64,000 nucleotides of DNA from Aureococcus anophagefferens (Eukaryota > Sar > Pelagophyceae > Pelagomonadales > Pelagomonadaceae): positions 392,685 to 456,684 of the forward strand of contig NW_008705573.1 of the NCBI RefSeq assembly GCF_000186865.1, read 5' to 3'. This document shows, in pieces, positions 990 through 56,000 of the stretch; the first letter of the stretch is position 1, and the number at the start of each line of letters is the position of its first letter. A model generated the notes under the pieces. The model did not search any database and was not told the DNA's origin. It was given only the letters and a program-made list of their open reading frames with translations. Both the position numbers and the translations under genes were made by a program.

Positions 990-3900
990 ATGAACACGAA
1001 ATTCGTGAAGCTCTTGGCCCTCTCGGTCTCCTGCAGCCTCGTCGCGGGCGTGCCGCCAGGTTCGCGCGCCCTCCAACGCGGGCGGCGCGACGACGACGAC
1101 GACGACGGCTGGGATTGGGACGACGACTTCTGGGACGACGACTACGACTACGACTACTACTACGGCATCAGCGTCGACGACGGCGATCGGTGCGCGGAGC
1201 GCGATGAGCGCTGCGACGACGACACGGCGTGCTGCGGCAGCGATTCGTGCTTCTGGCTCGACGGCAAGGACTACGGCGAATGCGGCAAGAAGTGCCCCGA
1301 GAACGACCGCTTCGAGTGCTACGTGCCCGAGTGCGCGGAGCGCGATGAGCGCTGCGACGACGACACGGCGTGCTGCGGCAGCGATTCGTGCTTCTGGCTC
1401 GACGGCAAGGAGCCGTGTGGAAATCAAATCTTCATCCCGACTTCAATGTGCGCGTAATCGAACGGTTTGGACCAGACTCTTTCGCTATCGATTCGTCCAA
1501 AAATCAGCCGAATCGACTTCGATTTGACCGAGATAGAGAGTTCTGAAGTTGGTGGGAACCCCCAAACCAGCGGTTGATTTCCACACAGGCAAGGACCACG
1601 GTGAATGCCACAAGAACTGTCCCAACGACGACAAGTTCGAGTGCTATGTGCCCACGTGCGTCGAGCGCGGCGAGGACTGCTCCGCCGGCGGCGGCTCGTA
1701 CATGCCCTGCTGCGATTCCAGGGACTCGTGCTTCTGGAAGGACTCGGACACGGCCGAGTGCCGCCGCGAGTGCCCGGACAATCCGAGCTGGGACTGCTAC
1801 GTGGCGCCGGAACCGCGGCCGACGCCTCGGCCGACGCCGCGGCCCTCGAAGCGCCCGTCGCCGCTGCCGACTCCGCGGCCCGTCGCGCAGCCGGACCCCA
1901 CGGCGCGGCCCACGGCGCGGCCGAGCGCGAAGCCGACGCGCCGACCCACGCCTCGGCCGACAAAGCGCCCGTCGCCTCGACCAACAAAACGGCCGACGCC
2001 GCGGCCCGTCGCGCAGCCGGACCCCACGGTGCGGCCCACGGCGCTGCCGAGCCCGAAGCCAACTCGCCGACCCTCGCCTCGGCCGACAAAGCGTCCGTCG
2101 CCTCGGCCCACGCGACGCCCGACACCGCGGCCCGTCGCGCAGCCGGATCCCACGCGGCGGCCCACGCCGAGCCCGACGCGAGGCCCGACGCCTCGGCCCA
2201 CCCGACGCCCGACGCCTCGGCCCACGCGACGCCCGACACCGCGGCCCAGCCGCGCGACGCCGACGCCCGTCGCGCAGCCGGCCGAGGCAGAAAGTGTCGA
2301 CGAAGAAGAAGAGGAGGACATCGACGAAGAAGAGGAGGAGGACGGCGACGAGGAAGAGGAGGAAGCGGAGGACGAAGAAGAGGAGGAGGACGGCGACGAG
2401 GAAGAGGAGGAAGCGGAGGAGCCGACGCGCGCGTGCCCCGCGATCCGCGAGGCCGACGCCTGCCCCGAGGAGGTCGACATCGCGCCCTGCGACGCCGTCG
2501 GCCTCGTGCCCGGCGATTTCTGCGAGGGCGACGGCGAGTGCGGCACGGACCGGGGCCTCGACAACTGCGCCGAGGCCGACATGTACGTCGTCGCGGGCGT
2601 CGGCGTCGACCTCGTCGTCGTCCTCGAGGGCGTGACCGCGGAGGAGTTCCGGAAGACCTTCGTCGCCGAGCGCTTCGCGGACGCCGTCGCCGCGGTCCTC
2701 GACGTGCCGCCGGCGGCCGTGGGCGCGCCCGTCGCGTCGGACGCGCGGCGGCGCCTCCAGGAGGCCGCCGCGCGGTCGTGCCGCGTCGACTTCGTCGTCG
2801 AGGTCGAAGAGGACCGGGACGTCGAGGAGGCGGGCGGCGGCGGGTCGTCGCGGCCCTCCGCCTCGACGCTCCCCGTCGTCGTCGGCGCCGCCGCGGCCGC
2901 GGCCGCCGTCGCGGTCGCCGCCGCGGTCGCGCTGGCGCGCCGACGGCGCACGCGGAAGCGCCGCGACCCCCCGGACCTCGAGAGCGCGGCCTCCGAGGAG
3001 GTGAAGCTCGACGACGAGCCGTCGCCCTACTCGCCGCGGCTCTCCTGGAAGACGCGCAAGGCGCGCCTCGGCCGCTCCTTCGCCTGGGACGACGCCGCGG
3101 GCGCGGGCTGGGTGTCGTGGGCGCGCGACGACGCGCTCGGCCTCCAGTTCGTGCGGCGCTTCGACGCCCGAGGGCGCCTCGAGCTCGTCGACGCGCGCGT
3201 GGGCTGCGCCGTCGGCGCCGCGGACGCGGCGACGCGCCTCGACCTCGAGGATTCCGGGTCGTGGCCCTTCGCGCGGCGCGTCGCCGCGCTGCGGTCGACG
3301 CTCGAGGCGCTGCGGATCCCCTGGCAGACGGGCCGCGTGTCGCCCGTCGTGACGCGGGGGCCGACGCTCCTCCAGGACTGCTTCGACGCGCTCGGCGGCC
3401 TGCGCGACGACCAGTGGCGCTGGCCCTTCTTCTTCAAGTTCGCGGGCGAGCCCGGCCTCGACGCGGGCGGCGTCGGCCGCGAGTGCCTGCGGCTGGCGAC
3501 GTCGGCGATCTTCGCGACGCACTTCGGGCTCTTCAAGTGCGCCGAGGGCGACGCGCTGACGTACACGGTCCAGGACGACGCGGCCGTCGCCGCGGCCGTC
3601 GAGGGCGGCGCGCGGTGGCTCAACTTCGCGGGGAAATTGGTCGGCAAGGCGCTGTTGGACGGCGCGCACCTCGACGCGCACCTGAACCGCTGCTTGTTGA
3701 AGCACGTCTGCGGCGAGCCGCTGAGCCTGGTCGACCTCGGGTGGCTCGACGAGACGCTGCTGAAGTCGCTGTCGCAGCTGCGCGACATCGACGTCGGCGG
3801 CCTGGAGCTCACGTTCTCCGTCGACGAGTCGGCGTTCGGGGCCGTGCGGAGCCGCGACCTCGTGGAGGGCGGGTCGTCCAGGGCGGTCACGGAGGCGAAC

Positions 3901-4645
3901 AAGGAGGAGTTCATCGGGTTGCGGCTGAAGGACGCGCTCTTCGAGACGTCGAAGGAGGGCATCGAGGCCTTCCTCGCGGGCGTCTACGCCGTCGTGCCCC
4001 TCGAGGCGTTCCTGCTCGTGTCCGCCGTGGAGCTCGAGCTCATGCTGTGCGGCGCGTCGGAGTTGGACGTCGACAGCTGGATGGCGCACGCGCAGTACCG
4101 GGCTGTGTGGAAATCAACCACTGAGCTGGGGGGTCCCAACCAAACTTCAGAACTCTCTATCTCGGCCAAATCGACGTCGATTCGGCTGATTTTTGGACGA
4201 ATCGATTGCTCTCGTCGAGTTCTCGAAGCACAGCGAAAGAGTCTGGTCCAAACCGTTCGATTACGCGCACATTGAAGTCGGGTTGAAGATTTGGAATCCA
4301 CACAGGTACCGGGGCGACTTCGCGGAAAAGGGCGCGGACCACGACGTCGTCCGGTGGTTCTGGGACGCGGTGCGCGCCATGGACGGTGCGACGCGGAGCC
4401 AGCTGCTGCAGTGGACGACGGGCCACGGCCGCGTGCCCGTCCAGGGCTTCTCCCACCTCATGGGCCGCGACGGCGCGCTCCGGCCCTTCACGCTCACGAG
4501 CGTGGCGCTCTCCGCGGCGACGTTCCCGCGCGCGCACACGTGCTTCAACCGCATCGACCTGCCGCTCTACGAGGACCCGGAGAAGCTCGCCGCGGCCATC
4601 AAGTTCGTCCTCGAGTTCGGCGACGAGACCTTCTCGATGGACTAA
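990..4645 (+). CDS. Membrane-anchored HECT-type E3 ubiquitin ligase with Cys-rich ectodomain
   Basis: Three exons (990-1404, 1589-4094, 4306-4645) give 1086 residues; both introns are introners. The order is: a signal peptide (1-24), an Asp-rich stretch, Cys-rich repeats of the CCGSDSCFWLDGK type (about 65-205), a long Pro-Arg/Thr repeat tract (about 210-370), an acidic Glu run, a second Cys-containing region, one hydrophobic Ala/Val helix (about 564-588) followed by RRRRTRKRR, and a HECT domain (about 740-1086). The HECT end has the catalytic Cys in FPRAHTCFNRIDLPLY (about residue 1052). HECT ligases take ubiquitin from an E2 onto this Cys and pass it to substrate. The Arg-rich stop-transfer places the HECT domain in the cytosol and the Cys-rich repeats outside. 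The combination looks receptor-like. Domain identity is firm; the ligand and substrates cannot be read from sequence. Confidence 0.85.
1191..1412 (+). repeat. Near-identical coding repeat in HECT ectodomain
   Basis: A block of about 78 bp beginning TGCGCGGAGCGCGATGAGCG occurs at about 1191 and again at about 1335. The two copies are nearly identical, so the duplication is recent. Copy 1 continues uninterrupted, whereas copy 2 is broken by the introner at 1413-1588, so copy 1 shows the site before insertion. Confidence 0.85.
1405..1588 (-). mobile_element. Introner F1 copy 1 (intron 1 of HECT gene, GC-AG)
   Basis: The element is 1413-1588 (176 bp), in reverse orientation relative to the F1 reference. 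It starts CCGTGTGGAAATCAA and ends TTGATTTCCACACAG. The 8-bp target is GCAAGGAG (1405-1412) and GCAAGGAC (1589-1596), 7 of 8 matching. Removing 1405-1588 joins GAC-G to GC-AAG-GAC-CAC and keeps the frame. Splicing at the internal GTGTGG instead gives an early stop, so the GC of the target copy is the 5' splice site. Confidence 0.93.
1816..2280 (+). repeat. Pro-Arg-Thr coding repeat tract
   Basis: Degenerate tandem units encode RPTPRPTKRPSP-like sequence inside the HECT gene, broken by four copies of a PRPVAQPDPT-like motif. This is a typical extended, probably glycosylated stalk between a Cys-rich head and a membrane anchor. An acidic Glu/Asp run, itself partly duplicated, follows at about 2305-2420. 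Confidence 0.85.
4095..4305 (+). mobile_element. Introner F1 copy 2 (intron 2 of HECT gene, GT-AG)
   Basis: The element is 4103-4305 (203 bp), from CTGTGTGGAAATC to GGAATCCACACAG. The target duplication is a perfect GTACCGGG at 4095-4102 and 4306-4313. The upstream GT of the target copy is the 5' splice site and the element's CAG the 3' site. The join CA|G-TAC-CGG-GGC-GAC restores the conserved HECT segment AQYRGDF. Confidence 0.95.
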
Positions 4646-5058
4646 CAAGTGCGTAGCAAACAGGCGTCGCGTCTTCCCGTGGCTCTCCCTACGCCTGCCC
4701 TCCCTCCCTTCGAGTCCTCCCTGTGCCGCGGCTAACTGGCACGGCGTCCCATAGCCTAAGTCTTTTCGCCGCGTCGTCGCCCGAGCCCGAGATGCTGCGC
4801 TCGCGCGCGGGCGCGTCGTGCTCGGCCTTGGCGTCGTCGTCGCCGCGTTCCTCTCCGCGCCGACCTTCGCGGTCTGGTGCCTGGCGTTCTTGAACGCGAA
4901 GCTCGCCTGGCGCAAGGGCGACGACGACGCCGAGGGGGGCATGGAGAACGACATGAGTGTGGTGCTCTAGGGGTGGATTTAGCCTGGGGTAAGGTTTTGA
5001 GCGATTTTGCCCCTCTTGCGCCCCCGCACGTAGCCCTCGCGTCACTCCGCAAACGATC
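4646..5058. other. Intergenic region without a supported gene
   Basis: A 413-bp gap between two plus-strand genes. A plus-strand frame at about 4752-4970 reads a hydrophobic segment (VVLGLGVVVAAFLSAPTFAV) and ends in TAG. It has no ATG before the helix and an in-frame stop upstream, so it could be a stranded terminal exon or chance. It is not called as a gene. Confidence 0.4.
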
Positions 5059-6123
5059 ATGAAGGCCGAGTACGTCGAGAAGCAGCGCGAATACGAAGAG
5101 AAGAAGGCGCGGGCGAAAGCGCTACAGCTCCGTTTGACGTGCACAGTTTGTGGGGCGAAGCCGAAGACCTTGCTGAACTGTCCGTGTGGATCAACGCAAT
5201 ATTGCTCGACGGACTGTCAACGCGTCGATTGGCGCGACCGGGGCCACAAGAAGGTCTGCAAAAAGATCCGGGACGAGCGGGCCGCGGAGGCGACGCGGGC
5301 CGAGGCGCCCCCGAAGCCAGTCTTCTACGGCCCCGCGCCGCGGTCGGGCGCCGACGAGGTCCGCGCGCGTATCGCGGCGGAACACGAGGCCGCTCGCGTG
5401 CGCCGCGAGGCGAACCCGGAGCCAAAACCCATGCACGGGGAACGATACGGGGGGCGATGTCCGGTCTGCTACGAGGACTGGGACGTAAATGCGACGACTC
5501 GCATTCGTAAATGTTGTTGCCGGAAGATTTGCCGCGCGTGCGACGACAAGGTCGGATACAACCCGTGCCCCCTTTGTCGGGCACCGGCGTCGAAGAGCGA
5601 CGCGGAAGATCTGGCGCGACTTCGTCGCCACGTGGATAACGAGTTGCCGGAAGCTCTCCTTTATCTTGGGAACGCGTACAAAACCGGCGAGTTCGGCCTC
5701 GTTGCATCCATGAAGAAAGCGGCCAAGCTGCTCAAGCGCGCCGCAGAGCTCGGGAACGCGAACGCCATGTCGAATTTAGCGGCGCAGTACCTTGCTGGAG
5801 AAGGAGTCAAGAAGGACCAGAAGAAGGCGACGCAGCTCATTCGAAAGGCTGCGGAACAAGGCTTCCCGCCGGCACAGTGCACTGCTGGAATGGAGTGTGA
5901 GGCGGAAGGGAATTTCAGGGATGCATTCGCCTACTACAAGCTCGCAGCTGATCAGGGGTTCACGCAAGCAGAAGTCTTTCTCGGTATGGCTTATTGTCGA
6001 GGACAGGGCGTGGAAAAGAATGTCGACGAGGCCATGCGCTTACTTTTGCGCGCGGCCGAAAAGGGCAACGAGATTGCTATGAGCGTGCTCCGTGGCATCC
6101 ATGCGCAACTTCGGACCACGTAG
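5059..6123 (+). CDS. MYND zinc finger, RING-like and Sel1-repeat protein
   Basis: A single-exon gene of 354 residues. A coiled N-terminus leads to a MYND finger at about 28-70 (C-x2-C, C-x-C, YCSTDCQ, H-x3-C), which usually binds proline-rich peptides. A second Cys-rich zinc module of RING type lies at about 133-178 (CPVCYEDWD, then CPLCRAP). The C-terminal half (about 190-345) has four or more Sel1-type repeats such as AAELGNANAMSNLAAQYLAGEG, which form a helical scaffold. The likely role is a protein-interaction adaptor, perhaps a ubiquitin ligase; the RING activity is inferred. Its base composition is visibly less GC-rich than its neighbours and it has no intron. Both points fit a recently copied or transferred family member. 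Confidence 0.85.
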   Translation: MKAEYVEKQREYEEKKARAKALQLRLTCTVCGAKPKTLLNCPCGSTQYCSTDCQRVDWRDRGHKKVCKKIRDERAAEATRAEAPPKPVFYGPAPRSGADEVRARIAAEHEAARVRREANPEPKPMHGERYGGRCPVCYEDWDVNATTRIRKCCCRKICRACDDKVGYNPCPLCRAPASKSDAEDLARLRRHVDNELPEALLYLGNAYKTGEFGLVASMKKAAKLLKRAAELGNANAMSNLAAQYLAGEGVKKDQKKATQLIRKAAEQGFPPAQCTAGMECEAEGNFRDAFAYYKLAADQGFTQAEVFLGMAYCRGQGVEKNVDEAMRLLLRAAEKGNEIAMSVLRGIHAQLRTT

Positions 6124-6172: not shown

Positions 6173-7467
6173 TTACGAGTAGATCTGCTCCCAGTGGTCG
6201 AAGTAGGAGCCGTCCTTGACCGTCGGGAGCCACGCGTTCGCGTCGCCGCCGCCCGCGCCGCCCGCGCCGCCGTGCCAGTGGATGCCGAAGGCGCCGTCGT
6301 ACCAGTCCTTGACGACGTCGTACTGCGCCTGGAAGAGCCAGTTGCGGTTCACGGGTTCGGGAAAATTCAGCGACGGCCGCGTCATCTCGCCCGTGTGGTG
6401 GCCGTCCATGCGGAGCCAGAAGGGGTCCCAGGCCGTGCAGGGCAGGCCGTAGGTGTTGCCCAGGCCCTTGACGACCTTGGCCGTCCAGAGCGTGTTGCCC
6501 CAGCCCTTGCAGCAGCCCAGGCCCTTGAGCTTGCCGCCGTGGCGGATGAGGGCCTCGCCCTCGCCGCGCCCCAGACCCTGGACGGCGTTGTTGAACTTCT
6601 CCGGGATGAAGCTCCACTGGTACTCGAAGTTCAGGCCCCAGAGCGGGTAGAGGTCGCGGAGCAGGACCTGGTCCGCGTCGAAGTAGACGCCGCCGTAGCG
6701 CCAGAGCACGAAGAGCTGGAAGAAGTCGCTGAAGTGGCGCGTGCCCTCCTTCTTGTCCCCCGGCTTCGTCGTGCTCCAGTCGTGGGCGAGGACGGCGTTG
6801 GTCACGTACTCCTCGAAGAGCGTGCCCTTGGCCATGGCCTACCGGGCGCGTCGGTGACGGTTTCCCGGTCGACATCTCTCGAAAATCGTCGCCGCCGCGG
6901 GACACCGGCCGCGGCCTCCATGTGGAGCGTCTGGAAGACGACGGGCGCGCCGGACATTGCCTCGACCTGTTCGACCAAAGCGCGGCCGCGCTCCGTGGAC
7001 CGCTCCGTGCCGTCGCCGGGCGTCCAGACGACGAGCTTGGCGCACTGGGCGTGCTGCGTCGCCCGGAAGCTCCGCAGGAACATGGCGACGACGCGCACCA
7101 TGGGCCCGTCCCACCACGTGTGCGCGAGGAACGCCGTCTTCTCGCACGTGACGCCCTTGAGCTCCTCCTCGTCGAGCTTCTTGCGCCAGCGCAGCGCCTC
7201 GAGGCATTTGGACGTGTTCGACCCGCCGTCCTTCTTCGGCCGCTCGGCGAGGACGCAGGCGCTGTCGGGCGCCACGCCCGGGGGCGCCGGCTTGCCGCCG
7301 AGCATGGCCAGGGCCGTGTAGCGGGCGTTCGCCGCCGGCGACGCCGGGCAGGGCGTCGCCGGGTCGTTGTCCCAACACCTATGAAACAGCTGAACGTGCG
7401 CAAAACCCCGGAGCACGCTGCGTTGAGCACGTATTATCGAAGACGGGCACGAGCGGGTTTTCTGCAT
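6173..7467 (-). CDS. DXD-motif glycosyltransferase (GT32-like)
   Basis: Exons 7467-6916 and 6838-6173 (minus) encode 405 residues; the intron is an F3 introner. The second exon holds FFQLFVLWRYGGVYFDADQ, the sugar-binding DXD block of the GT32/OCH1-like family, in which the two Asp residues hold a nucleotide-sugar through a metal ion (about residue 236). The first exon carries the FLAHTWWDGP and KLVVWTPGDG segments expected upstream. The enzyme probably acts in the Golgi on a glycan or glycolipid. The N-terminus is uncertain: 7378 looks like a 3' splice site (TTTCATAG|GTG), and sequence upstream of it is less GC-rich and poorly protein-like, so the true first exon may lie elsewhere. Confidence 0.75.
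6839..6915 (-). mobile_element. Introner F3 copy a (intron of glycosyltransferase, GC-AG)
   Basis: On the minus strand the element is 6907-6839 (69 bp). It starts CGGTGTCCCGCG, carries the family core GCGACGATTTTCGAGAGA and ends CCCGGTAG. The flanking 8-mers are GCCGCGGC (6908-6915) and GCCATGGC (6831-6838), 6 of 8 matching. Removal joins ATG-GAG to GCC-ATG-GCC and keeps the frame into the DXD domain. Confidence 0.85.
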
Positions 7468-8297: not shown

Positions 8298-10879
8298 ATG
8301 GAGGGCGTGAGTTTGATCTGCGACAAGGAGGAGGAGGGGACGATCTTCACGGTCGAGCTGCCCGCGGACGACGGCGCGTCGACGGCCGTGCGCGTGCGCG
8401 CGAACTGGAGCGACAGCGTCGCGACGCTCGCCGCCCACGCGCGGGAGAAGGCCCACAAGCACGGCGGCATCCACGCGAAGCTCCAGCTGGCGCTGCGGAG
8501 CGAGCCCGGCCGGCCCCGCGCGGTGCTCCACGACGAGGACGCGCTGGGCGACGTCATGACGGAGGCCGACCGGGACCGCGTCGTCGCGGCCGCGCCGGAG
8601 CCGGAGGGCCGCTTCGCCGCGATCGGCCTGGCGGCCGCGCGCCTCGAGAAGGCCGAGGCGGCGGGCGAGGCGCTGCCGCCGCCGCCGCCGGAGGCGCGGC
8701 GCGCCTTCGACTTCGACGACCTGACGTTCACGGTCGCGGACCGCGCGACGCGCGAGCCGAAGCATCTCGTCGCGGGCGTCTCGGGCAGCGTGCGCGGCGG
8801 CGAGATCATGGCCGTCCTCGGCCCGTCGGGGTCCGGCAAGTCGACGCTCGTCGCCATGCTCACCCTGCGCACGGCGACGGGCGCCGCGTCGGGCGCCGTG
8901 CGCATCGACGGCGCGAAGCTCACGGCGGCGCGGTTCCGGGCAGGAAAAGAGAGCGAAATTCCCAACTTCAAAGGGCTCCTATCTCGGCCGTTTCCACTCG
9001 TTTCGGCTGATTTTTGGACGAGCGATCATCTCTCGGAACGATCTCGAAGCATGGATGCTTTTTCCGGAACGCGCGCGCGCGGAACACTCATGTTGAAGCG
9101 AACTTGAATCACTCTTCCTGCCCAGGCGCGATTCCGGGCGTCGTGTTTCGTCGTCGAGCAGCGGGACGAGCTCTGGCCCTACCTGACGTGCCGCGAGTCC
9201 ATGGCCTACGCCGCGGCGCTCTACGGCGCGCCGGGGCGGGACCCGGACGCGCACCTCGACCGCCTCGGGCTCGCGTCGTGCGCGGACACGCTAGTGGGCA
9301 CGCACTTCCAGCCCGGCCTGAGCGGGGGCCAGAAGCGGCGCCTGTCCATCGCGCTGGCCCTCGTGAAGCGCGCGAAATGCCTGCTGCTGGACGAGCCGAC
9401 GTCGGGCCTCGACGCCGCCGCGGCCTACAACGTCGTGACGTTCCTCCGCGAGCTCGCCAAGGCCGACAAGCTGTACGTCGTGTCGACGATCCACCAGCCG
9501 AGCGCGCGCGTCTTCGCGCACTTCTCGTCCGTGCTGCTGCTGTCCAAGGGCCGCACGGCCTACTGCGGCCCGGCGGACGCCTGCCTCGCCCACTTCGAGG
9601 CCCTGGGCCACGCCGTGCCGCCCCACACGTCCGTCGCGGAGTTCTTATTGGACGCGGTGAACGCGGACTTCACGGACGACGCCAAGGTCGACGCGATTTT
9701 GGACGCGTGGGCGCCCGTCGAGGAGGACCGGGGGCCCGCGAAGGTCGACGGCGACGCGGCGCCGCCGCCGCCGGCGCAGCTCGCGGTCTGCCTCCGGCGC
9801 CAGTGCCTCCTGATCCGCCGCGACCCCATCCTCCTCGTGGTCCGGGCCGTCGCGCTCTTCGCCGGCAACCTCTACTTCTCCATCGTCTACATCCAGGCGC
9901 GGCGGCGCCACCAGGACCAGGTGCAGAACCGCATGATGGCGGCGCTGTGGCTCCTCGTGTACCCGACGGAGGCGTCGGTCCGCGCGGCATTCGACGACTG
10001 GTCCCGACCAAACTTCAAGACTCTCGAGCTCGGTCAAATCGATTCGGCTCATTCTTGGACGAGAGCTTTTCTCTCATCGAGCTCTCCACGAAGAGCACGG
10101 AAACCTTTGTCGAAACGGTTCGATGCGCACATTGAAGTCGGATTGAAGATGTGAATTCCACTCAGGTGTCGGTCCTGGTCGCGTACGCGACGAACATGGA
10201 GATGGGCTACGTGCGCACGGAGGTCACGAACGGGCTGCTCCGGGCCGGTCCCTACCTGCTCTCCAAGGCGCTCCTGGAGATCCCGCTCATGATCCTGCTG
10301 GCCTTCGCGGCGCTCGGCGTGCCGGGGTTTTTGGTTTTGGACTTTGGGAACTTCGGGTCGTCCATGGTCGTCTGGGCGCTGCACCAGTACGCGTGCGAGA
10401 CGACGGCGGCGTGCTGCGCGTGCCTGGGCCACCCGCTGCTGGCCATGGCGGCCTACATGACCATCTGGTACTGCGACCTGCTCTACTGCGGCGTCTGGGT
10501 GCCCCGCGACGACATGGTCTGGCCGCTGCGGGCCTTCCACTACCTGTCGCCGACGACCTACGGCCTCCGCCAGCTCGTCTGGAGCGACCTGAGCTACGGC
10601 CACTACGACAAGTGCGACAACTACCCCAGCGACCAGTACTGCTTCTGCGGCGACGACGTCGACGCGCGCTGCGACGGCGAGTCGGTCCTCCGGAACCTGC
10701 ACAAGCTCTTCGCGCTCTTCCACCCGAAGGACACGCTCGCCGTGGACTCCCTCAAGCTCATCGGCATCGCCGTCCTCTACAAGGCGACCCAGGCCGCGCT
10801 CTTCATGCACTCCTGCCACGGCGCGACGGCCGTCGAGCCGGCGAAGAAGCGCGCTGAAGCGTGCCTAAAGCGAGCGTAG
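8298..10879 (+). CDS. ABCG-type half transporter
   Basis: Three exons (8298-8927, 9126-9971, 10166-10879) give 729 residues; both introns are introners of different families. The N-terminus (1-130) is a folded-looking extension. The ATPase domain follows: Walker A GPSGSGKST (about 174), signature LSGGQKRRLS (about 275), Walker B CLLLDEPTSGLD (about 296) and switch His in STIHQPS. The C-terminal half carries about six hydrophobic segments and a Cys-rich loop (CDNYPSDQYCFCGDDVDARC) before the last helix, as in ABCG proteins. Half transporters of this nucleotide-binding-domain-first type dimerise and export lipids, sterols or other hydrophobic compounds. The substrate is not readable. It ends 59 bp from the convergent RCC1 gene. 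Confidence 0.93.
8928..9125 (+). mobile_element. Introner F2 copy 1 (intron 1 of ABCG gene, GC-AG)
   Basis: The element is 8936-9125 (190 bp), from CCGGGCAGGAAAAGAG to CTCTTCCTGCCCAG. The target copies are GCGCGGTT (8928-8935) and GCGCGATT (9126-9133), 7 of 8. Removal joins ACG-GCG to GCG-CGA-TTC in frame. Its middle part shares TTCGGCTGATTTTTGGACGA and TCTCGAAGCA with family F1. Confidence 0.93.
9972..10165 (+). mobile_element. Introner F1 copy 3 (intron 2 of ABCG gene, GC-AG, diverged)
   Basis: The element is 9980-10165 (186 bp). It starts CCGCGCGGCATTCGACGACTGG and ends GAATTCCACTCAG, and is more diverged from the F1 reference than the other copies, so it is probably older. The target copies are GCGTCGGT (9972-9979) and GTGTCGGT (10166-10173). 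Splicing joins ACG-GAG to GTG-TCG-GTC inside a membrane helix. Confidence 0.9.
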
Positions 10880-15228: not shown

Positions 15229-16615
15229 CTACGCGACCTTGACCGCGCGCACCATCGCCGTAAGGCAGATCTTCAGCCATTCCCCGCAGGGAACCATGAC
15301 CGCGCGCGTGTAGTAGTCCGACTTCCCCGCCATGTTGCGGAAGTCGGCGAAGTGGCAGTTGAGGGGGCCGAAGTCGAGGAACATGTTCATGGGGTGGTCG
15401 CCTGTGTGGAAATCAACCACTGGTTTGGGGGGTCCCCACCAAACTTCAGAACTCTCTATCTCGGTCAAATCGAAGTCGATTCGGCTGATTTTTGGACGAA
15501 TCGATTGCTCTCGTCGAGTTCTCGAAGCAAGGCAGAAGAGCTCGCGTCGAAACGGTTGCATGCGCGCACATTGAAGTCTGGTTGAAGATTTGATTTCCAC
15601 ACAGGTGACCACACGCCGCGGAGAAGACGTGGTCGAAGTGGACCTTCTCGACGAGGGCGTCGAGGACGTGCGGCACCGCGCGCAGCCGCGGGAACCGCGC
15701 GGAGAGCACGCGCTTGATGCCCTCGGGTCCGAGCTTGTCGCGGAAGATCTTCTTGAGCCCGTCGACGCCGCGGTTGCTCCGCTTTTTCGACGCGCGGTAG
15801 GCCTCCATCACCGCCCGGTGCTCCGGACAGTCCTCGTGGCCGAGGAGGGCACAGCGGGGGTTGTCGTCCGGCAACCCAGGGCCGTGGTAGCCGATCTTGT
15901 CGCGCTCCGCCTGCCCAAAGCTCACGTCGACGCAGAGCTGCTCGAGCAGTCCGTCGAAGTCGCCGTCGATCTTCGCCGCCGCGGCCGCGCCGCGGCCCCG
16001 CGCGAGGTCGTGCGCGAGCAGGCGCCGCGTGATCGACTGCACGCGCTTCATCTCGACGACCTCCTCGGTCGTCGCCGAGCCCGCCGCGGTCGCGTAGTCC
16101 TTGACGAACTCGTACTGCGTGTCGCCGAGCTTGAGGTCCCCCATGTTCGTGAGGTCGACGACGACGGACTTGTAGGACGTCGTCACAGTCCCATCATCAT
16201 TCCGACAGTACTCCCGCGTCTGCAAGCACGTCTGCCCGTCGGCCCGCGCTACCATGGCCTTGCCCGTCGCGAAGTTGCGACGTGCGCCCGGCGCGCCGGG
16301 CGGCACGACTCCTTCCCGCGCGCGGCCCGCGGCGGTTTTCAGCCGCTTCGCGATAGGGTTTTCCCACACGTCGGAGTCGTCCGGCGCGTACGAGAGCCAA
16401 CGGATGCGCGCACCGTCCAGCGCCTTCTCGAGCACGTCCAGCGCGCGCCCGCCCGGTCTAGAATCGCAGTTCGCTGTGAAATGAGGCCGATAATAGTCGA
16501 CCGTGTCTTCGCCCGCGCCCGCGCTGTGGCTGTATGTGACCATCCCTCCATATGTGAGGGCCTCGAACGCGGCGCGGTCGCGCTTGCCAACAACGCCGCG
16601 TTTTGGCGCCGACAT
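15229..16615 (-). CDS. Protein of unknown function (two exons)
   Basis: Exons 16615-15613 and 15401-15229 (minus) encode 391 residues; the intron is an introner. The start is taken at MSAPKRGVVGKRD (16615); another in-frame ATG lies at 16711. The sequence mixes helices and charged loops and contains several Cys/His residues (CRNDDG, CALLGHEDCPEH), but I recognise no domain. After splicing the tail reads FSAACDHPMNMFLDFGPLNC and continues for a further 46 residues to a normal stop, which supports the exon junction. It is divergent from the Abi-like gene. Confidence 0.7.
15402..15612 (+). mobile_element. Introner F1 copy 4 (intron of unknown gene, GT-AG)
   Basis: The element is 15402-15604 (203 bp), with perfect F1 ends CTGTGTGGAAATCAA and TTGATTTCCACACAG. 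The gene is on the minus strand, so the element is reversed relative to it. On the minus strand the target copies are GTGGTCAC (15612-15605) and GCGACCAC (15401-15394), 5 of 8. Splicing joins GCG-GCG-T to GC-GAC-CAC and keeps the frame. Confidence 0.9.
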
Positions 16616-17464: not shown

Positions 17465-18204
17465 CTAGTGGCCGTTCGACAGCTCGAGGCCGACGACGCC
17501 GGCGATGATGACGAGGATGGACAAGATCTTGTTCCGGCTGATGCTCTCCCCGAAACAGATCACGCCGACGGCGTAGGTCAGCGCGCAGCCCGCGCCGCTC
17601 CAGATCGCGTAGGCGACGCCCAGCGGGATCACCTTGAGCACGTGCGTGAAGAGCGAGAAGCAGGCGACGTAGCCGAGCACCGTGCCGACCTGCGATGGTC
17701 GCCGCTCGCGCGGCGAAAAGGCGGCGCGGGGGACCCCGGACCGCGGACTAGGCAGGACAAGAGAGCGAAATTCCCAACTTAAAAAGCTCCGATCTCGGCC
17801 GTTTTCCACTCGTTTCGGCTGATTTTTGGACGAGCGATCATCTCTCGGAACGCTCTCGAAGCGTGGATGCTTTTTTCCGGAACGCGCGCGCGCGGAACAC
17901 TCACGTTGAAGCGAAGTTGAATCACCCTTGTGCTGCCCGGGCCGCGGACGTGCCAGATCTTGTTCGTCGCGGCCATCTTCATGGACGTCGTCGCGAAGAT
18001 CTCCAGCGCGATGGTGACCGCGAGGGTGACGCGGCCCTCCATGAGCGACGGCGGCGCGGCCTCGAGCGCGCCGCCGCCGCGCGGCAGCGACGCGGGCTTG
18101 GCGAGCGCGCGCGCGGGCCGTCGCCGCGGCCGCGCGGCCGCGCGCGGCGCCTGCAGCAGCGCCGCGGCGGACGCCGCGAGCGCCAGCAGGAGCGCGGCGC
18201 GCAT
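17465..18204 (-). CDS. Small multidrug resistance (SMR/EmrE)-type transporter with organelle presequence
   Basis: Exons 18204-17950 and 17689-17465 (minus) encode 159 residues. Residues 1-20 are a signal peptide and 20-50 an Arg/Ala/Pro-rich, transit-like stretch. The rest has the four short helices of SMR proteins. Helix 1 is in VTLAVTIALEIFATTSMKMA with the essential Glu. Helix 3 has IPLGVAYAIWSGAGCAL, matching the EmrE AYAIWSG signature. SMR proteins are homodimeric proton antiporters for cationic compounds. The presequence suggests plastid or endomembrane location (inferred). The intron (17690-17949) contains an F2 introner; splicing joins KIWH to VGTVLGY, as expected from EmrE alignment. 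Confidence 0.85.
17690..17949 (-). other. Spliceosomal intron of SMR gene with an introner nested in it
   Basis: On the minus strand the intron runs from GTCCGCGGC (17949) to ATCGCAG (17690), 260 nt. Only this join gives the SMR frame. Without the element and one target copy it would be a 59-nt intron with its own GT and AG, similar in size to other introns here. The introner therefore landed inside an existing intron close to its 5' end. Confidence 0.8.
17740..17948 (+). mobile_element. Introner F2 copy 2, nested within an intron
   Basis: The element is 17748-17940 (193 bp), from CTAGGCAGGACAAGAG to CTTGTGCTGCCCGG. The target copies are ACCGCGGA (17740-17747) and GCCGCGGA (17941-17948), 7 of 8. 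It is reversed relative to the gene. It is the only copy in the window whose target copy does not provide the 5' splice site in use; on the minus strand the GT begins one base upstream of the target copy. Confidence 0.9.
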
Positions 18205-18529: not shown

Positions 18530-18760
18530 TGCCGCGGTCCCCGGCCACGTCCCCGGCCCGTGCCCGGGCCGTGCCCGGGGCCCCGTGCCGGGCCCGTGCC
18601 GGGCCTCCCCGGCCCGTGCCCGGCCCGTGCCCGGGGCCCGTGCCGAGTGCCGGGCCCGTGCCGGGCCGCGTGGCCCGTGCCCGGCCCGTGCCCGGGGGCC
18701 CGTGCCGAGTGCCGTGCCGCGTGCCGGGCCCGTGCCGGGCCGCGTGCCCTGAGCGCATTT
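18530..18760. repeat. GC-rich simple repeat (GTGCCCGG / GTGCCGGGCC units)
   Basis: Irregular runs of GCCCGTGCCCGG and CCGTGCCGGGCC, with both strands highly self-complementary. It could fold into many hairpins and is a likely replication or sequencing hotspot. I see no coding meaning. Confidence 0.85.
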
Positions 18761-25446: not shown

Positions 25447-25924
25447 CGACCGGCGGCGGGGCAACGTAACGATACCGCCCGGCTCTTTCGCCCCGCGGAG
25501 CCCGCCGACGAGCGCCGCGCCGACGACGGCCGCGGCGGCCGCGGACGCCGCGGCCGGCCCGCCGCCGCTCGTCGTCCGCGCGTTGAGGTCGTGGCCGGCC
25601 CCCGCGGCCGCGGGCCTTCGGCGGCCGCCGCCGCGGGCGCGCCGCGCGCGCGGCGCGGCGTCGGCCGCGACGACCGGAGCCGCGGCTACCGGCGGCTCGC
25701 GACGCTCTAAGGTGGGGTTATTGGGGGGCTTGCGTCCTAACATATCCCGCCGGCGGGATTGTCAAACGCCGCTAGGTTGGTCGTGAGGGAGGCGAGGGCG
25801 GCGCGGTCCGCGAGGCGGCGCGCGCCCTCGTCGATTCGGCGGGAGAGGGTGTGCATGGCGGCGTTCCTGCCATTGGCGTACTTGAGGCCGGCGAGCAGGT
25901 AGCGGGAAAGGGGTAGTGTCTCGC
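25447..25924. other. Intergenic region between convergent genes
   Basis: A 478-bp region, very GC-rich at 25500-25700 with alternating CGCG tracts. It contains one arm of a long-distance inverted repeat at 25741-25772. No gene is supported. Confidence 0.5.
25741..25772 (+). repeat. Inverted-repeat arm, left (partner 28539-28571)
   Basis: CATATCCCGCCGGCGGGATT followed by GTCAAACGCCGC. The reverse complement of 28539-28571 matches it over about 33 bp with few differences. The inner TCCCGCCGGCGGGA is itself palindromic. The two arms bracket the calcium-binding-repeat gene. Confidence 0.75.
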
Positions 25925-42547: not shown

Positions 42548-43733
42548 CTACCCAACCCCGTTACCCCGCGCCACGGCGACGACGTCCGCGATGCCCAGGG
42601 GCCGCGTCTTGTGCCGCAGGGCGAAGGCGATCTTGCTCGCCGAGTCCGGCAGCGCGCGTTTGTTCGAGCACCGCCGGTCGAAGGCCGCGGCGACGCCGTC
42701 GCCCGCGGGCACGAGCTGGAAGCGCGCGAGCTCGCCCTCGGCGAAGGCCTCGGCCGCGGCGGCCGCGCGGGGCACGGCCGTGCCGTCGAGCGTCCGCAGC
42801 TCGCCGCGCTCGTGGCGCAGCACCACGAACAAACTCTCGTCGTCGGCCGCGAAGTACCGCGTGCACGCCGCGTCCTTGAAGAGCGCCACGAGGGGCGTCG
42901 GCCCGAGGGCGTAGTGGCCCTGCTTCGCGTAGAAGAGGAGGCCGTCGCGGAGGTAGGGCAGGGGCCCGCCGTGCGCCGCCAGCACGCCGTCGCCGTCCGC
43001 GTCGAAGTACGGCGCGGGGGCCAACGCGTAAGGCGCCGCCTCCTCCGGCGGCTCCAGCTCGCCGAGCTTCGTCCGGAGCCAGTAGAAGCGGAACTCCGCC
43101 GTGCAGTCGTAGAGGCTGTAGCCCCCCCAGGTCATCACGTCCACGACGAAATACGTACTCGACGGCTCGTAGAAGACGCACTCGAGCACGGTGGCCTGGT
43201 CGTCCTTCGTCGCCGTCTGCGGCGACCCGGAGGGCACGGCGCTGCGCCAGCGGTGGAGCACGTCGCCGTGGGGGAGCCTCGACGCGGTCTTGCCCCGCGA
43301 CGCGACGACCAGGCACCGCTTGCCCTCGGGCCGCGGCACGACGTACCAGCCGCCGCCGTGGGCGTCGCCCTTGCCGTTGAGGTCCGGCCTACGGATGACG
43401 TTTCATAAGCGTGGCGCTTGGGCGGACGCCGCTTCCGCGCGGGATCTCGACGAGCCACTCCGGGATGCAAAACTCGAGCGACCACTTCGCCGCGCGCTCC
43501 TTCGCCTCGCGGTCCGCGCGCCGCCGCTTGAGCTCCGCCTTGCTGAGCGTCGCGTCGACGTCCATGCGCGGCGCCTCGGGCTCCGGCGCGGCGAGGGCCC
43601 GCGCGTGGTCCGCGAGGTTGCGCCGCGCGTCGCGCTGCCGCTGGAGCGCCTCCGCGCGCCGCCGGTCCTGGCAGAGCGCGAGCCGGTCCCGCGACAGCGG
43701 TTTCCGCGACGGCGCGGAAGCCATCGCTGCCAT
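42548..43733 (-). CDS. SNUPN: Snurportin-1 homologue (m3G-cap import adaptor)
   Basis: Exons 43733-43441 and 43388-42548 (minus) encode 377 residues, close to human snurportin's 360. The cap-binding fold is clear: GKRCLVVASRGKTASRLPHG, YFVVDVMTWGGYSLYDCTAE and RFYWLRTKL. The N-terminus is helical and Arg-rich, as in the importin-beta-binding region. Snurportin carries spliceosomal snRNPs with trimethylguanosine caps into the nucleus. The 52-nt intron joins LEFCIPEWLVEIP to PDLNGKG. Confidence 0.88.
43389..43440 (-). other. 52-nt GC-AG intron of snurportin
   Basis: On the minus strand it is GCGCGGAAGCGG to CGTCATCCGTAG. A frame change is required between the two conserved parts, and this pair gives it. 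It ends in CCGTAG|GC, like the F3 family. Confidence 0.7.
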
Positions 43734-51538: not shown

Positions 51539-51548
51539 GCTGTAGTTT

Positions 51549-52920
51549 TTACCGGCAGATGCAGGAGCGGACGCGGCCGCGCTGGTTCCTCCCGCCGCCC
51601 TCCGTGGCCGGCCGCCGCTTGTCGTCCGCGGTCACGACGGTGCCCGCGGACGCGAGGGACTGGAGCGACGCCTCGTGGGACAGCTTCTTCCGCGGCGACT
51701 GCTTGCCCCCGTTCTTGAGGGCGTCGAGCGCCTCGAGGCCCTCGAGGAACTCCTGCGCGGTGAGGTCGCCGTTGCCGTCGTCGTCGATCTCGTCGAAGAG
51801 CGTCGAGAGCTCGAGGAGCGAGTGCTGCGAGAGGAACTTGCCGCGCGCGACGACGCGCCCGAAGGCGCCGATCTTGCCCGCCTCGCGCACCTTCTCGAAG
51901 AAGCGCTCCTTCTTGATGCCCCCGCGCCAGCAGACGGACTCGCGGAGCCGCCTCTCGCGGTCGCGCGCCGCGCGCCGCTCGTCCTCCCAGCTCTCCAGCG
52001 CCGTGTAGAACTCGTCGAAGCTCAGCGAGTTGGACCGGTCCTCGTCGATCATGTAGAAGATCTTCGTGAGCGCCGCGTCGGACAGGTTCGCGAGCTTCGA
52101 CCTGTGTGGAAATCAACCGCTGGTGTGGGACGTCCCGACCAAACTCGAGAACTCTCTATCTCGATCAAATCGATGTCGATTCGGCTAATTTTTGGACGGA
52201 TCGATTGCTCTCGTCGAGTTCTCGAAGCACAGCCGAAGAGTCCGGCACAATCCGTTCAATTACGCGCACATTGAAGTCGGGTTGAAGATTTGATTCCTGC
52301 CCGGGCTTCGACGCGTTCGGGAGCGCGGGCTCGAGCATGCCCAGGCCGCCCTTGCCCGTGCGCACGCAGTTCAGGAACTCCTGCAGGGAGAAGTCGAAGC
52401 CCCCGGCGACCTTGGCGCCGGGCGCCGTCTTGTGCTCCGCCGCCGCGGGCGTGCCGATGAGGCCGGGGATGAGCTGCGGCGCGTTCTTGCGGACGACGCG
52501 GTTCGTCGCCGTCGAGTAGGTGAGCTGGCGCGGCGCCGTGCAGGACGGCGACCCGCGCCAGCCCCGCTCGAGGCGGCGCACGTTCCAGCGGAACGACGCG
52601 CCCGAGTCCGCGACGACGCCCGGGATCCGCGCCGCGCTCGCGTCGTGCGACGGCACGACGGTCATCGACGAGTCAAAGGCCTCGAGGTAGGGGTCCACGG
52701 GGTCCAGCAGGGACGCGTCGTCGAGCGTCTTCCCCTCGTCCTGGAGCAGCATCTTCTTCCGCGCCCGGGCGACCATGCGCTCGCCCAGGCGGTCGCCGCA
52801 CTGGAGCACCTGGTACTGCAGCGCGAGGTCCGACTCGACGCAGCGCGTCAGCCGCTGCTGCCGCGCGCGCACGAAGACCTCCAGCGCATCGAGCTCCGCC
52901 CGGTTCACGTCCTTGACCAT
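51549..52920 (-). CDS. EF-hand calcium-binding protein
   Basis: Exons 52920-52313 and 52101-51549 (minus) encode 386 residues. Two EF-hand loops are visible: DEDRSNSLSFDEF and DEIDDDGNGDLTAQEF, the second near canonical. The N-terminal half is helical (MVKDVNRAELDALEVFVRAR) and links to a conserved-looking middle with Pro and Thr. The intron is an introner whose removal brings the first EF hand into frame. It may act as a calcium sensor. Confidence 0.8.
52102..52312 (+). mobile_element. Introner F1 copy 7 with mixed ends (intron of EF-hand gene, GT-AG)
   Basis: The element is 52102-52304 (203 bp). One end is the F1 end CTGTGTGGAAATCAA. The other is TTGATTCCTGCCCGG, which is F1 inside but F2-like at the tip. 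The target GCTTCGAC is duplicated exactly (52094-52101, 52305-52312). In the minus-strand gene it splices AAC-GC|G-TCG-AAG. Confidence 0.92.
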
Positions 52921-53074
52921 GCGGCCGCGCACGACGCGCCGATCACACCGTCGTGCTCTCCATGATCGTTGTGTAAAGTTGTTATTCTTCACCACCAACT
53001 CTTCACCATCGCCCTGGTGCTTCCCATCTCGGGGCAGCGCTGGTGCGCTCTTAAGCCGCTCCGTCCGCGCCGCC

Positions 53075-56000
53075 ATGGGCGACGCCGCGCCGGCGAAGGA
53101 GGCCGACGACGCGGCGACGGGCGCGGACGACGCGAAGCAGGAGGACGACCACCGGCGCGACAGCCAGCAGCGCGTGCTGGCGGCGATGCAGCCGCGGCCG
53201 TCGCAGCCCATGGACACGGCGGCGAAGGAGGCGGCCATCTTCAAGGCCATGCACGGATCCCACGAGGACGTCGACGACCACGACATGGACATCCCCGCGA
53301 TCCGCCTCGACCACAAGTCGACCATCGGCGCCATGCGCTGGGCCAAGCTCCAGGCGCAGGTCGGCGACTCGTCGAAGGACTTCCAGCTCCTCGCCGCCGG
53401 CAAGGAGAACGACGAGGAGACGATCACGAGCTCCGTCAAGTCGCGGAGCCGGCTGCGCTACGGCGCGCCGAACTTCATCTGGGCCGCGGGCAAGGTGGGG
53501 CCTGACGGCCGCCGCGCCGCGGACCCGAACCAGGCTGCGCGCGAGGCCATGCACCGCGAGGGCACGATCCGCGCGACCATGTACCGCGCCCCGACGGGCG
53601 ACGCGTCGAGCACGGGCGAGCTCAACCGCGAGGGCACGGTGCGGCTCCAGCCCGCGGACGGCGCGCGGCGGAGCGGCTGCGACGCGATCCCTGTGCTCTA
53701 CCCCGACGGCCCGCTGCGGCTCCGGTGGGACGTCTGCCAGGTCTTCGCGCGCGCCGCGGCGTCCCGCATCCGCGACGATTTGCGAGAGACTCGGACCGCA
53801 GAAACGATGAACAATCGTCACCGACGCGCGTCGTAGGCTCGCCTACGTTTCGGTGATGGTGCCCGTGCGCATCGGCCTCGACTACCCGGCCATCGGCGTC
53901 TGGTTCATGGTCGAGACGGCCATCGACGTCTACTTCATCCTCGACATCCTGGTGAACTTCTTCACGGCGCTCTACGCGACGGAGATGGGCGAGAACGCGG
54001 CCGTCGTGGACCAGATGGCCGCCGTGGCCCACGGCGGCGCCAAGGTCACGGCGAACAAGCGGCGCATCGCGGCGGTCTACCTCCGGGGCTGGTTCATCAT
54101 CGATTTGTTGGCGTGCGCGCCCGTCGACTACCTCCAGCGGGGCTCCGCGGACGCCATCGGCTGCTCCTACCACCCCGTGCGCCCCTGCACGTCGCGGGCG
54201 AACGCGGCGCCCCAGGGCCAGGCCTTCAAGCTCTTCAAGTTGTTGCGGACGTTCCGCGTGCTCAAGCTCTTCCGCTTGTTTCGGCTCAAGCGGCTCATGA
54301 AGAAGTACCAGGACGAGCTGCTCTACTGGCTGCCGCTCATCCAGGCGGGGAAGCTGCTCGTGATGCTCGTCTTCGCGAGCCACTGGATGGGCTGCGCCTA
54401 CGCGTCCGTGTTCCCCTTCGGCGACGACGTCACGCGGTCCGAGCGCTACGTCGCGTGCGTCTACTGGGCCATGCAGACCATCACGACCGTGGGCTACGGG
54501 GACATGGGGTCGCCGTTGCTGCGGTGCCGCCTCGTGGCCATCGTGTCCATGGCCGTGGGCGCGCTCCTCTTCGGCTGGCTCATCCAGTACGTGCTCACGG
54601 TGCTCGACCCGGACACGTTCGAGCGGAAGCAGCAGGCGAAGATCGAGCGCATCATGGCCTACCTGCGCGCGAACTCGCTGCCCATGGACCTCGCGCAGCG
54701 CGTCATCCGCCACGTGCGCCAGCAGAACTCGCGCCAGTCCGAGGCAGGGCAGCAAAAGAGAGCAAAATTCCCAACCTCAAAGCCTCCTATCTCGGCCGTT
54801 TCCCACTCGTTTTGGCTGATTTTTGTACGAGCGATCATCCCTCGGAGCGGTCTCGAAGCATGGATGCTTTCTCCGGAACGCGCGCGCGCGGAACACTCAC
54901 GTTGAAGCGACGTTGAATCTCTCTTTTGCTGCCCAGGTCCGAGGACCGCGCGGTCCTCGAGGCGCTGCCGCGGCAGCTCCGGGGCGAGATCTTCCTCAAT
55001 TTGTACGAGGAGCACGTCCGCACGGTGCCGCTCTTCAACGGCGTCGGGCCCGCCTTCGTCGCCGACATCTGCGCGAAGCTGAGCCCGCTGACCATCCCCG
55101 CGGGCGAGGTCGTCTACGGCGTCGGCGACCTCGCGGACGAGGGCACGTACATCGTCGCGGCCGGCGTGGAACTCAAATCTTCAACCGGACTTCAATTTGA
55201 GCGTATGCGACGGTTTTGACGCAAGCGCTTCCATCGTGCTTCGAGAACTCGACGAGAGCACTCGAGTCGTCCAAACATGAGCCGAATCGATGTGACCGAG
55301 CTCGAGAGTTCCAAAGTTTGGCCCCGACGTCCCAGCCCACCGGTTGATTCCCACGCAGGTCGCGTCGGGCGAGGTGACCATGGCCGCGCGGCGGGTCAAG
55401 CCCCCGGGCAAGCGGGCCATGCAGCACATGAAGGCCCTGGGGCTCGTGGCCCAGCCGACGTCCGTCGCGCTCATCATCGAGCACGTCGGGCCCGGGTCCG
55501 TCTTCGGCGAGGGGTCGACGCTCGGCTGCTCGCGGCGCATCGACGAGGCCATCTCGCGGGGCCAGACGGAATTATTGACCATCCCCGGCGACGACTTCCG
55601 CCAGACGCTGAACCTCGTGCCGAAGCTGCGGTGGCGCGTGCTCAAGCGCTACGTCGAGTACCTCATCAAGTCCGTGTCCCAGGACAAGGTCAAGCTCTGC
55701 CACGCGCTCCTCGAGATGCAGCTCCCGGAGCTCGTCGAGGGGCGGACCTACGACGCGCCGGCGGGCGCCGGCGAGCTCGTGGGCCGCGCGCGCGGGCTCG
55801 CCATCGACGCCGAGTGGCGCGAGATTTTGGTGGACCTGCGGGAGACGTGGGAGGCGCGCTTCACGAACCTCGAGCCCCTCATCACGTCGGCACCGTCGTC
55901 GCACGCCGCAGCGCCCGCGCCGGAGAAGCAGCCCCTGCCCCGGGAGACGCTGCGGGCCCAGGCCGCGCACGCGCGCGAGGCGCGGGGCAAGGCCGACGAC

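Follow-up and report, generated by a model that had tools for sequence, protein, structure and literature searches.

Introner elements of three families as putative introns in a 64-kb window of the Aureococcus anophagefferens genome

Many near-identical introns sit in unrelated genes of the Aureococcus anophagefferens genome, which raises the question of what they are and how inserted DNA could come to act as introns. Introners are a well-documented bulk source of new introns; they were reportedly described in this species by Huff, Zilberman and Roy in 2016, and their presence in A. anophagefferens is already known. The window, that is the whole stretch of 64,000 nucleotides analysed here, carries 15 copies which, judging from their sequence, are very probably (about 95%) introners of this kind, MITE-like non-autonomous DNA transposons that would be spliced as introns.

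The copies were recovered by self-comparison and by motif and profile searches, and fell into the families F1 (8 copies), F2 (3) and F3 (4), exactly as in the original prediction. The coordinates of two F1 copies had to be mended; the copy near 52101 occupies 52102-52304, and the copy at 10 kb begins at 9980. The copies are as follows, with introns as predicted (TSD, 8-bp target duplication).

1413-1588, + strand: F1 introner, antisense to a + strand gene for a cysteine-rich protein (by eye); intron 1405-1588; donor TSD 1405-1412 GCAAGGAG, right TSD GCAAGGAC, 7/8; frame restored
4103-4305, + strand: F1 introner in a HECT ubiquitin-ligase gene; perfect TSD GTACCGGG; intron 4095-4305
6839-6907, - strand: F3 introner giving intron 6839-6915 of a - strand gene that by eye resembles a glycosyltransferase gene; TSD GCCGCGGC at the donor, with GCCATGGC as its second copy
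8936-9125, + strand: F2 introner in an ABC transporter gene beginning at 8298; TSD GCGCGGTT/GCGCGATT; intron 8928-9125
9980-10165, + strand: F1 introner in the ABC transporter gene of the preceding copy, probably older because its ends are decayed; TSD GCGTCGGT/GTGTCGGT; intron 9972-10165
15402-15604, - strand: F1 introner giving intron 15402-15612 of a - strand gene; decayed TSD copies, matching at 5/8
17748-17940, - strand: F2 introner with a TSD of 7/8, in a gene that by eye encodes an SMR-type transporter; nested next to the donor of what appears to be an older short intron
23476-23678, + strand: F1 introner in a + strand gene in which PAS-like repeats and an H box resembling that of histidine kinases were recognised by eye; TSD 5/8, donor GCAAAGAG
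26912-26991, - strand: F3 copy, candidate intron; TSD 4/8; flanks hardly coding
36777-36847, - strand: F3 introner in a - strand gene; perfect TSD GTTCAGCG; intron 36777-36855
37516-37718, - strand: F1 introner in a - strand gene; perfect TSD GCGCGCGC; intron 37516-37726
52102-52304, - strand: F1 introner in a - strand gene with EF-hand-like motifs (by eye); perfect TSD GCTTCGAC; intron 52102-52312
53757-53836, + strand: F3 introner giving intron 53749-53836 of a gene that resembles those of cyclic-nucleotide-gated K+ channels; TSD GCGCGCCG/GCTCGCCT
54745-54936, + strand: F2 introner of the one-way CAGGG subfamily in the K+ channel-like gene; perfect TSD GTCCGAGG; intron 54737-54936
55162-55358, + strand: F1 introner in the K+ channel-like gene of the copies at 53757 and 54745; TSD GTCGCGGC/GTCGCGTC; intron 55154-55358 (TSD donor) or 55166-55358 (in-frame donor 12 nt downstream)

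Inverted ends had been claimed for all three families; they were found in F1 and F2, while those of F3 were weak. F1 and F2 have a common interior and unlike ends. The element ends open with CTG or CAG, and F1, F2 and F3 all have a G(T/C) inside the element, at positions 5-6. Each F1 inverted end is 15 bp long and reads outward as TTGATTTCCACACAG, which looks like a branch point, pyrimidines and AG combined. The acceptor AG sits in the element end and the donor in the duplicated target; target copy and element together give an F1 intron length of 211 nt. The interior also contains a conserved block, TCGGCTGATTTTTGGACGA, which we take to be Sm-site-like; a functional role for this block was considered and is unsupported by any result here.

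An unselected sample of 186.6 kb gave 10 F1, 6 F2 and 4 F3 matches, two of these 20 being weak, and the 15 copies per 64 kb in the window amount to about twice that density, in line with the high density originally claimed. No further abundant repeat family was present among stretches below 64% G+C in window and sample, and no Rfam match reached the gathering score within the window. A repeat at 41495/41709 was first taken as F3 and rejected, as it lies in coding sequence. A mechanical scan for inverted ends with duplications gave 195 candidates, mostly due to chance in this GC-rich window; filtering on base composition and on ends in AG reduced them.

The target copies, predicted to range from perfect to decayed, matched at 7 or 8 of 8 bases in 10 of the 15 window copies and at 4 to 6 bases in the remainder. 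The match was 8/8 at 4103, 36777, 37516, 52102 and 54745; 7/8 at 1413, 8936, 9980, 17748 and 55162; 6/8 at 6839 and 53757; 5/8 at 15402 and 23476; and 4/8 at 26912. From base composition, a chance pair of 8-mers matches at 7 or more of 8 bases with a probability of about 0.001. A wider tally of copies and their duplications, proposed with the original prediction, gave 8/8 in 46/71 F1, 25/31 F2 and 8/29 F3 rows; these counts lean upward because the element ends were placed within 6 bases in favour of matching duplications and expected end letters. Of the 72 F1 matches found, 71 were placed. The 40 F1 stretches taken comprised 39 listed matches of one query and 1 from another search; for F2, 20 of the 39 listed matches (query excluded) were taken, and for F3 20 of 32.

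Removal of one target copy plus the element restored the frame at 13 of the 14 non-nested window copies under a codon-position model. The original prediction had claimed restoration everywhere except at the nested SMR copy; this copy (17748) did fail, and at 26912, which has hardly coding flanks, the frame was right at 1/3 offsets. The model was first trained on three genes that had been joined beforehand by the tested rule; these contain six of the 13 restored junctions (ABC 2, HECT 1, channel 3), so that only 7 of the 13 are independent. Flank coding scores were weak at 36777 and, away from the junction, at 15402. Within coding segments of the window, 10 of 11 frame changes fell no more than 60 bases from an introner and one elsewhere (43329-43482), which supports the claim that these elements make most of the introns in the window, the test being blind to introns in UTRs or introns keeping the frame index. 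Scanning mechanically for open frames failed to discriminate the expected splice sites, since such frames run long in GC-rich DNA.

In the unselected sample the coding score exceeded 10 on at least one flank in 17 of 17 copies and was at least 9 on both flanks in 13 of 17 (two weak F3 matches and one F1 copy cut by the locus end were left out), although, with 56% of the sample scored as coding, chance alone will often give one coding flank. Of 11 unambiguous copies, 10 had at least one flank whose coding strand was that of the donor; the mismatch was an F3 copy at L015:4775 with a TSD of 4/8. The flanks of the copy at L017:2416 scored on opposite strands.

For the one-way F2 subfamily an exact whole-assembly count, without freedom of end placement, found GT or GC exactly 8 bases upstream in 253 of 266 places, compared with 19.6% expected. 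Among copies with 8/8 TSDs a GT/GC donor was present on at least one strand in 45/46 F1, 25/25 F2 and 8/8 F3 copies against an expected 0.352. This tally used 123 of 131 rows; those dropped were six rows scoring below 50, L001, and for one F3 locus its L029 copy, whereas L002 (a duplicated stretch) and one doubtful L029 row were kept. Sampled copies of the CAGGG F2 subfamily carried donors one way only, F3 nearly so, and F1 both ways: its perfect-duplication copies were 14 forward, 13 reverse and 18 both by donor alone, and 14, 16 and 15 when an acceptor AG was required too. Surviving copies almost always have a GT/GC that is correctly placed and oriented, and the near-total confinement to spliceable places is striking.

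It is unlikely that this rule mainly reflects a target preference of the transposase rather than selection by splicing. In favour of such a preference, the octamers show a weak mirror bias, with C at position 8 in 46 and AC/GC ends in 35 of the first 100 of the 253 places (21.4% expected for the latter). However, a symmetric preference would not favour F1 donors on one strand only, which occurred in 27 of 46 perfect-duplication copies (14 forward versus 13 reverse), and the window donors lie on the gene's strand. The ratio of GT to GC was 47:53 in the first 100 of the 253 places and 33:26 in oriented copies, against a null GT share of 0.259; in odds, GT is enriched 2.5- to 3.6-fold over GC relative to base composition. 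Splicing selection fits this excess better than a plain base preference of the transposase. Past GT/GC there was little donor motif.

Uniform insertion with neutral intergenic copies predicts about 8 copies outside spliceable coding sites for each copy within them if 44% of the DNA is non-coding, or 1.1:1 if 10% is. The one-way F2 subfamily gave about 0.065:1 and so falls short of these values 17- to 120-fold. Target choice might also be coupled to transcription or splicing competence, with insertion at sense-strand gene-body sites, so that unspliceable copies would be rarely made and not only removed; we regard this as rather improbable.

The proteins predicted with the TSD donor bear on the exact splice site. 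Pfam domains span five of the six junctions in the three spliced proteins (ABC, HECT, channel), the HECT domain (72-383 of the joined piece) crossing the junction of the 4103 copy; the sixth junction, of the F2 copy in the channel gene, falls between two Pfam domains. At the five junctions of the ABC and channel genes no residues were gained or lost compared with junction-spanning relatives (four for the ABC gene, four or five for the channel gene). In aligned columns the channel protein was 100% identical to A. anophagefferens P0121 and 99% to P0122, placing the genome in this species or a close strain; BLASTP gave 92% identity over the full length and 97% where 48% of the query aligned.

The G(T/C) inside the element, at positions 5-6, could instead be the usual donor, keeping 12 nt (8 of target and 4 of element) in the mRNA. 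At the 55162 copy P0121 and P0122 are annotated in this way, with the donor lying 12 nt further downstream, and Gozashti et al. 2022 (PMC9860276) describe a family in Aureococcus sp. that adds exactly 12 bp to the mRNA. With an internal donor, however, GT/GC in the duplication would be unneeded, yet 253 of 266 places have it; the four extra residues are absent from relatives, and P0121 and P0122 agree with the TSD donor at 54745. Compared with that example, the donor statistics here favour an unchanged mRNA, and the internal donor is improbable as the usual one. Conserved residues are missing in the annotated P0121 (at the F3 copy) and P0001 (at both ABC junctions), and because these models and P0122 vary or lose conserved residues at junctions, the annotation leaves the splice sites unsettled.

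Spread through RNA, by reverse splicing of introns into transcripts and copying back as proposed for fungal introners, would likewise place copies in or beside coding sequence at spliceable sites, and F3 and the CAGGG F2 subfamily were sense only in the copies seen. Nevertheless, copies are flanked on either side by 8-bp duplications of their own, and 95 different upstream octamers occurred among the first 100 of the 253 places, which speaks against this route because reverse splicing would bring the donor octamer along. F1 moreover occurs in both orientations in the 27 unambiguous perfect-duplication copies, and RNA-based spread is accordingly very improbable. That the elements are ordinary old introns made alike by gene duplication can practically be dismissed: a single pair, 15402 and C9:172714, is the same copy with common flanks, that is a duplicated stretch with its introner, whereas the other fetched copies carry differing duplications and the copy at 37516 differs in its target octamer from a 99% identical relative.

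Insertion of a DNA transposon thus remains the preferred reading. A non-autonomous element, presumably moved by a transposase acting in trans, would insert into a gene with duplication of 8 bp and bring the 3' splice site on its end, while the 5' splice site would come from the duplicated target when its first two bases, read on the coding strand, are GT or GC. The inserted elements may act as introns because the copied eight gene bases serve as one splice site, and splicing in vivo would take out one target copy and the element, leaving the mRNA unchanged. The GT/GC association would be made by selection against unspliced copies. Anatomy, target duplications, frame restoration and the association itself were observed directly.

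A search for transposase domains covered the three families hAT, KDZ and Mutator (PF05699, PF18758, PF10551); no match was obtained, with a positive control that rang for PF10551 only and was silent for the hAT dimerisation domain PF05699. Patterns catching part of the possible ends found one match for F1 ends around another interior, an ordinary F1 copy, and none for F2. In L020 a repeat of 4.5 kb, bounded by long inverted ends and related to window positions 25738-28571, was considered as an autonomous partner and rejected because its ends differ. Exact-word scans gave 85 viral-contig loci with exact short matches and no convincing viral copy; profile matches there were weak and covered only part of the elements (F1 once, at E 0.05; F2 never; F3 at best with E 4e-4 over 32/80 positions, in loci preselected by an F3 16-mer). 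The F1/F2 core was absent from bacterial and archaeal genomes.

Short inverted ends and 8-bp duplications are features of hAT-type MITEs. The present elements share both and differ in having ends that open with CTG or CAG and in giving no match to the hAT dimerisation domain, for which the control was silent. Like Aureococcus introners they have 8-bp TSDs, carried and co-opted splice sites (on sequence evidence) and restored coding sequence on removal, and membership in that system, as originally proposed, fits species, inverted ends (F1, F2), donor and acceptor roles, frame and copy number. The introners of 2016 are treated in PMC9860276, PMC10228655, PMC9612004, PMC9481584 and PMC7789003. 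Species, duplications, inverted ends, both orientations, high copy number (hundreds to thousands) and the use of one carried and one co-opted splice site are reportedly the same, the F1 intron of 211 nt is close to the roughly 210 bp given as characteristic (PMC9481584), and no essential difference was recognised. The catalogue of 2022 (PMC9860276) likewise describes gene enrichment, diverse splice-site sources and Aureococcus families with 8-bp duplications, and gives no introner homology between genera; the Micromonas pusilla introners, known to us from passages in citing papers, resemble the present ones by description, not sequence, in being of DNA type with a co-opted splice site.

Added here are the common interior of F1 and F2, the orientation-locked F2 subfamily and the whole-assembly donor count. 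The sequences suggest that GT/GC with little further motif can accompany an apparently working intron, which is relevant to the minimal requirements of a new intron. The subfamily spliceable in one direction only is a clean natural experiment on the confinement of surviving copies to spliceable sites, and the choice between targeting and purging becomes countable in new insertions among strains.

Self-comparison, end scans, and motif and profile searches recovered the eight F1, three F2 and four F3 introners that the original prediction had counted in the window, which has a G+C content of about 70%. Typical lengths were 203 bp for F1 and 192 bp for F2; F3 copies were mostly about 80 bp long, with a range of 69-80 bp within the window. 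The predicted 8-bp target duplications (TSD) matched at 7-8 of 8 positions in 10 of the 15 copies.

The reading frame across the elements was assayed with a codon-position model, for which the training set was three window genes at first and sample sequence afterwards. According to the original claim, the frame is restored once one target copy is removed along with the element; this held at 13 of the 14 non-nested copies. The remaining one, copy 26912, gave the right frame at one of three offsets, and its flanks were hardly coding. The nested SMR copy (17748) failed the frame test, as had been stated. Because six of the 13 restored junctions belong to the training genes, where they had been joined by the rule under test, seven are independent of training. 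Ten of the 11 frame changes inside coding segments sit at elements, in agreement, as far as introns that shift the frame index within coding sequence are concerned, with the claim that introners make up most introns of the window. The sole frame change away from the listed elements lies at 43329-43482. The segment at about 43390-43440 on the minus strand ends in CGTAG and by eye faintly resembles a shortened F3 copy.

Spliced proteins were tested for an ABC transporter (F2 and F1), a HECT ligase (F1) and a channel (F3, F2 and F1). Of the six junctions, five are crossed by Pfam domains and one falls between two domains. When the donor was placed at the start of the duplicated target (the TSD donor), comparison at the protein level with relatives spanning the five ABC and channel junctions showed residues neither gained nor lost. 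Over aligned columns, the channel protein assembled from the window had 100% identity to the annotated Aureococcus anophagefferens protein P0121 and 99% to P0122; by BLASTP one match had 92% identity over the whole query and the other 97% over 48% of the query. These values place the window in that species or in a very close strain. Both annotated proteins are consistent with the TSD donor at copy 54745. At copy 55162 both contain four extra residues, their donor there being element positions 5-6. These positions are occupied by GT or GC in F1, F2 and F3, and a donor there would leave 8 + 4 = 12 bases, keeping the frame. Such an outcome is also described for an introner family of an Aureococcus sp. 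(PMC9860276), in which 12 bp kept in the mRNA resemble the annotation at 55162. Conserved residues are missing from P0121 at the F3 junction and from the annotated ABC protein P0001 at both junctions. Three public A. anophagefferens models thus drop conserved residues or gain four at introner junctions, sites at which gene prediction is therefore fallible.

Copy numbers were estimated for the assembly (49.05 Mb, 86 contigs), in which the window occupies positions 392685-456684 of contig C13. Twenty 10-kb stretches picked by coordinate (186.6 kb excluding N) contained 10 F1, six F2 and four F3 matches, two of the latter weak. By our arithmetic from these small numbers, the genome would hold about 2,600 F1, 1,600 F2 and 500-1,050 F3 copies. 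First-look candidates in the assembly, among which cross-matches are possible, numbered 1,749-1,788 for F1 and 1,569 for F2, of the same order as the extrapolation. The F3 core 16-mer occurred 369 times at no more than one mismatch, and the control 0 times. The window was about twice as dense in introners as the sample, which bears out the high density first noted. The introner at 15402-15604 recurs with its flanks at position 172714 of contig C9; since the flanks are shared, this stretch was duplicated together with its introner. Other repeats in the window were as follows.

4751-5855: about 72% identical to positions 1462-2578 of locus L013; judged by eye, likely members of a gene family that carries zinc-finger and Sel1-like repeats
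18534-18742: degenerate GC-rich repeat with units like GTGCCCGGGCC
20329-23437: eight 360-bp tandem repeats, two identical over 300 bp, apparently PAS-like coding units; an N run lies just upstream
25738-28571: related to positions 1103-5632 of locus L020, both bounded by the palindrome TAACATATCCCGCCGGCGGGATATGTTA or its variants; the L020 repeat has inverted ends of about 127 bp, 99% alike and 4.5 kb apart; possibly a separate transposon

Among sample octamers, 19.6% open with GT or GC; the share is 35.2% when either strand may supply the dinucleotide. Among introners with a perfect TSD, a GT/GC donor was present on one or both strands in 45 of 46 F1, 25 of 25 F2 and 8 of 8 F3 copies; with all rows used, the values were 64/67, 30/31 and 22/25. 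The perfect-TSD F1 copies had the donor in the forward sense only (14), in the reverse sense only (13) or in either (18). One F2 subfamily has a left end beginning with CA (CAGGG) instead of CT and hence no reverse acceptor AG; all 20 copies examined had a forward-sense donor. The other 11 F2 copies had it forward (7), in reverse only (3) or in neither sense (the nested window copy). The left end of the one-way subfamily was counted exactly in the whole assembly: GT or GC stood exactly eight bases upstream in 253 of 266 copies (95.1%). Among the first 100 of the 253 listed, GT and GC occurred 47:53, so that GT is commoner relative to GC than the null predicts (GT share 25.9%, p = 6e-6). In the same 100, octamer positions 3-8 showed weak preferences at most (positions 3 and 8, p ~0.01), and 35 octamers ended in AC or GC (21.4% expected, p = 0.002). 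The excess at the octamer's far end is a mild mirror preference and hints at some transposase target preference as well. The base before the donor matched the genome expectation in 59 oriented copies.

The interiors of F1 (38-185) and F2 (26-174) are homologous, with E values mostly of 1e-9 to 1e-11 for the window copies. Global alignment of the two consensus sequences scored 47 (shuffled mean -33, maximum -6), and their outer parts are unlike each other. F1 and F2 thus form a single lineage in which the ends have diverged or been replaced. No clear similarity of F3 to F1 or F2 was detected (local alignment scores 13-17).

A transposase acting in trans likely binds the element ends and generates the 8-bp duplications; the inverted end likely serves also as the 3' splice site, the donor probably coming from the target duplication. 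In the consensus, both F1 ends, read outward, are TTGATTTCCACACAG, which contains TTGAT, pyrimidines and AG. We take TTGAT to be a branch-point-like motif; its presence with pyrimidines and AG at each end would explain F1 splicing in both orientations. Searches with profiles PF05699, PF18758 and PF10551 (the control responded for PF10551 alone) and with two partial end patterns found no transposase. A later survey reportedly dealt with horizontally moved introners. Exact-word scans of viral contigs yielded no convincing introner copy, and those of prokaryote genomes yielded none at all.

The kind of element is already known, as papers citing the 2016 description report nucleosome-linker insertion and the use of both orientations (PMC10228655), one splice site carried and the other co-opted (PMC9612004), constant-length direct repeats and inverted ends with canonical motifs (PMC7789003), and introns of about 210 bp (PMC9481584). 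Neither the orientation lock of F2 nor the interior common to F1 and F2 nor the whole-assembly donor count was found in the compared passages of this citing literature, and none is claimed as new.

In a rough map, sequence scored as coding made up 56% of the sample. Each of the 17 copies scored there had one or both flanks above a coding score of 10, and in 13 both flanks reached at least 9. In 10 of 11 unambiguous copies, at least one flank was coding on the strand that the donor predicts; the eleventh is an F3 copy whose duplication is poor. Agreement at a single flank is weak by itself because so much of the sample is coding. Uniform insertion with harmless intergenic copies should give no clear majority at spliceable sites. 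By our arithmetic, about 94% of the one-way F2 subfamily lie at such sites after correction for chance donors. Introners were gene-enriched in 161 of 175 genomes and evidence of negative selection on them has been published (PMC9860276), so the direction of the placement bias is not new. The bias would arise either by gene-body targeting followed by purging of failures or by avoidance of unspliceable sites from the outset.
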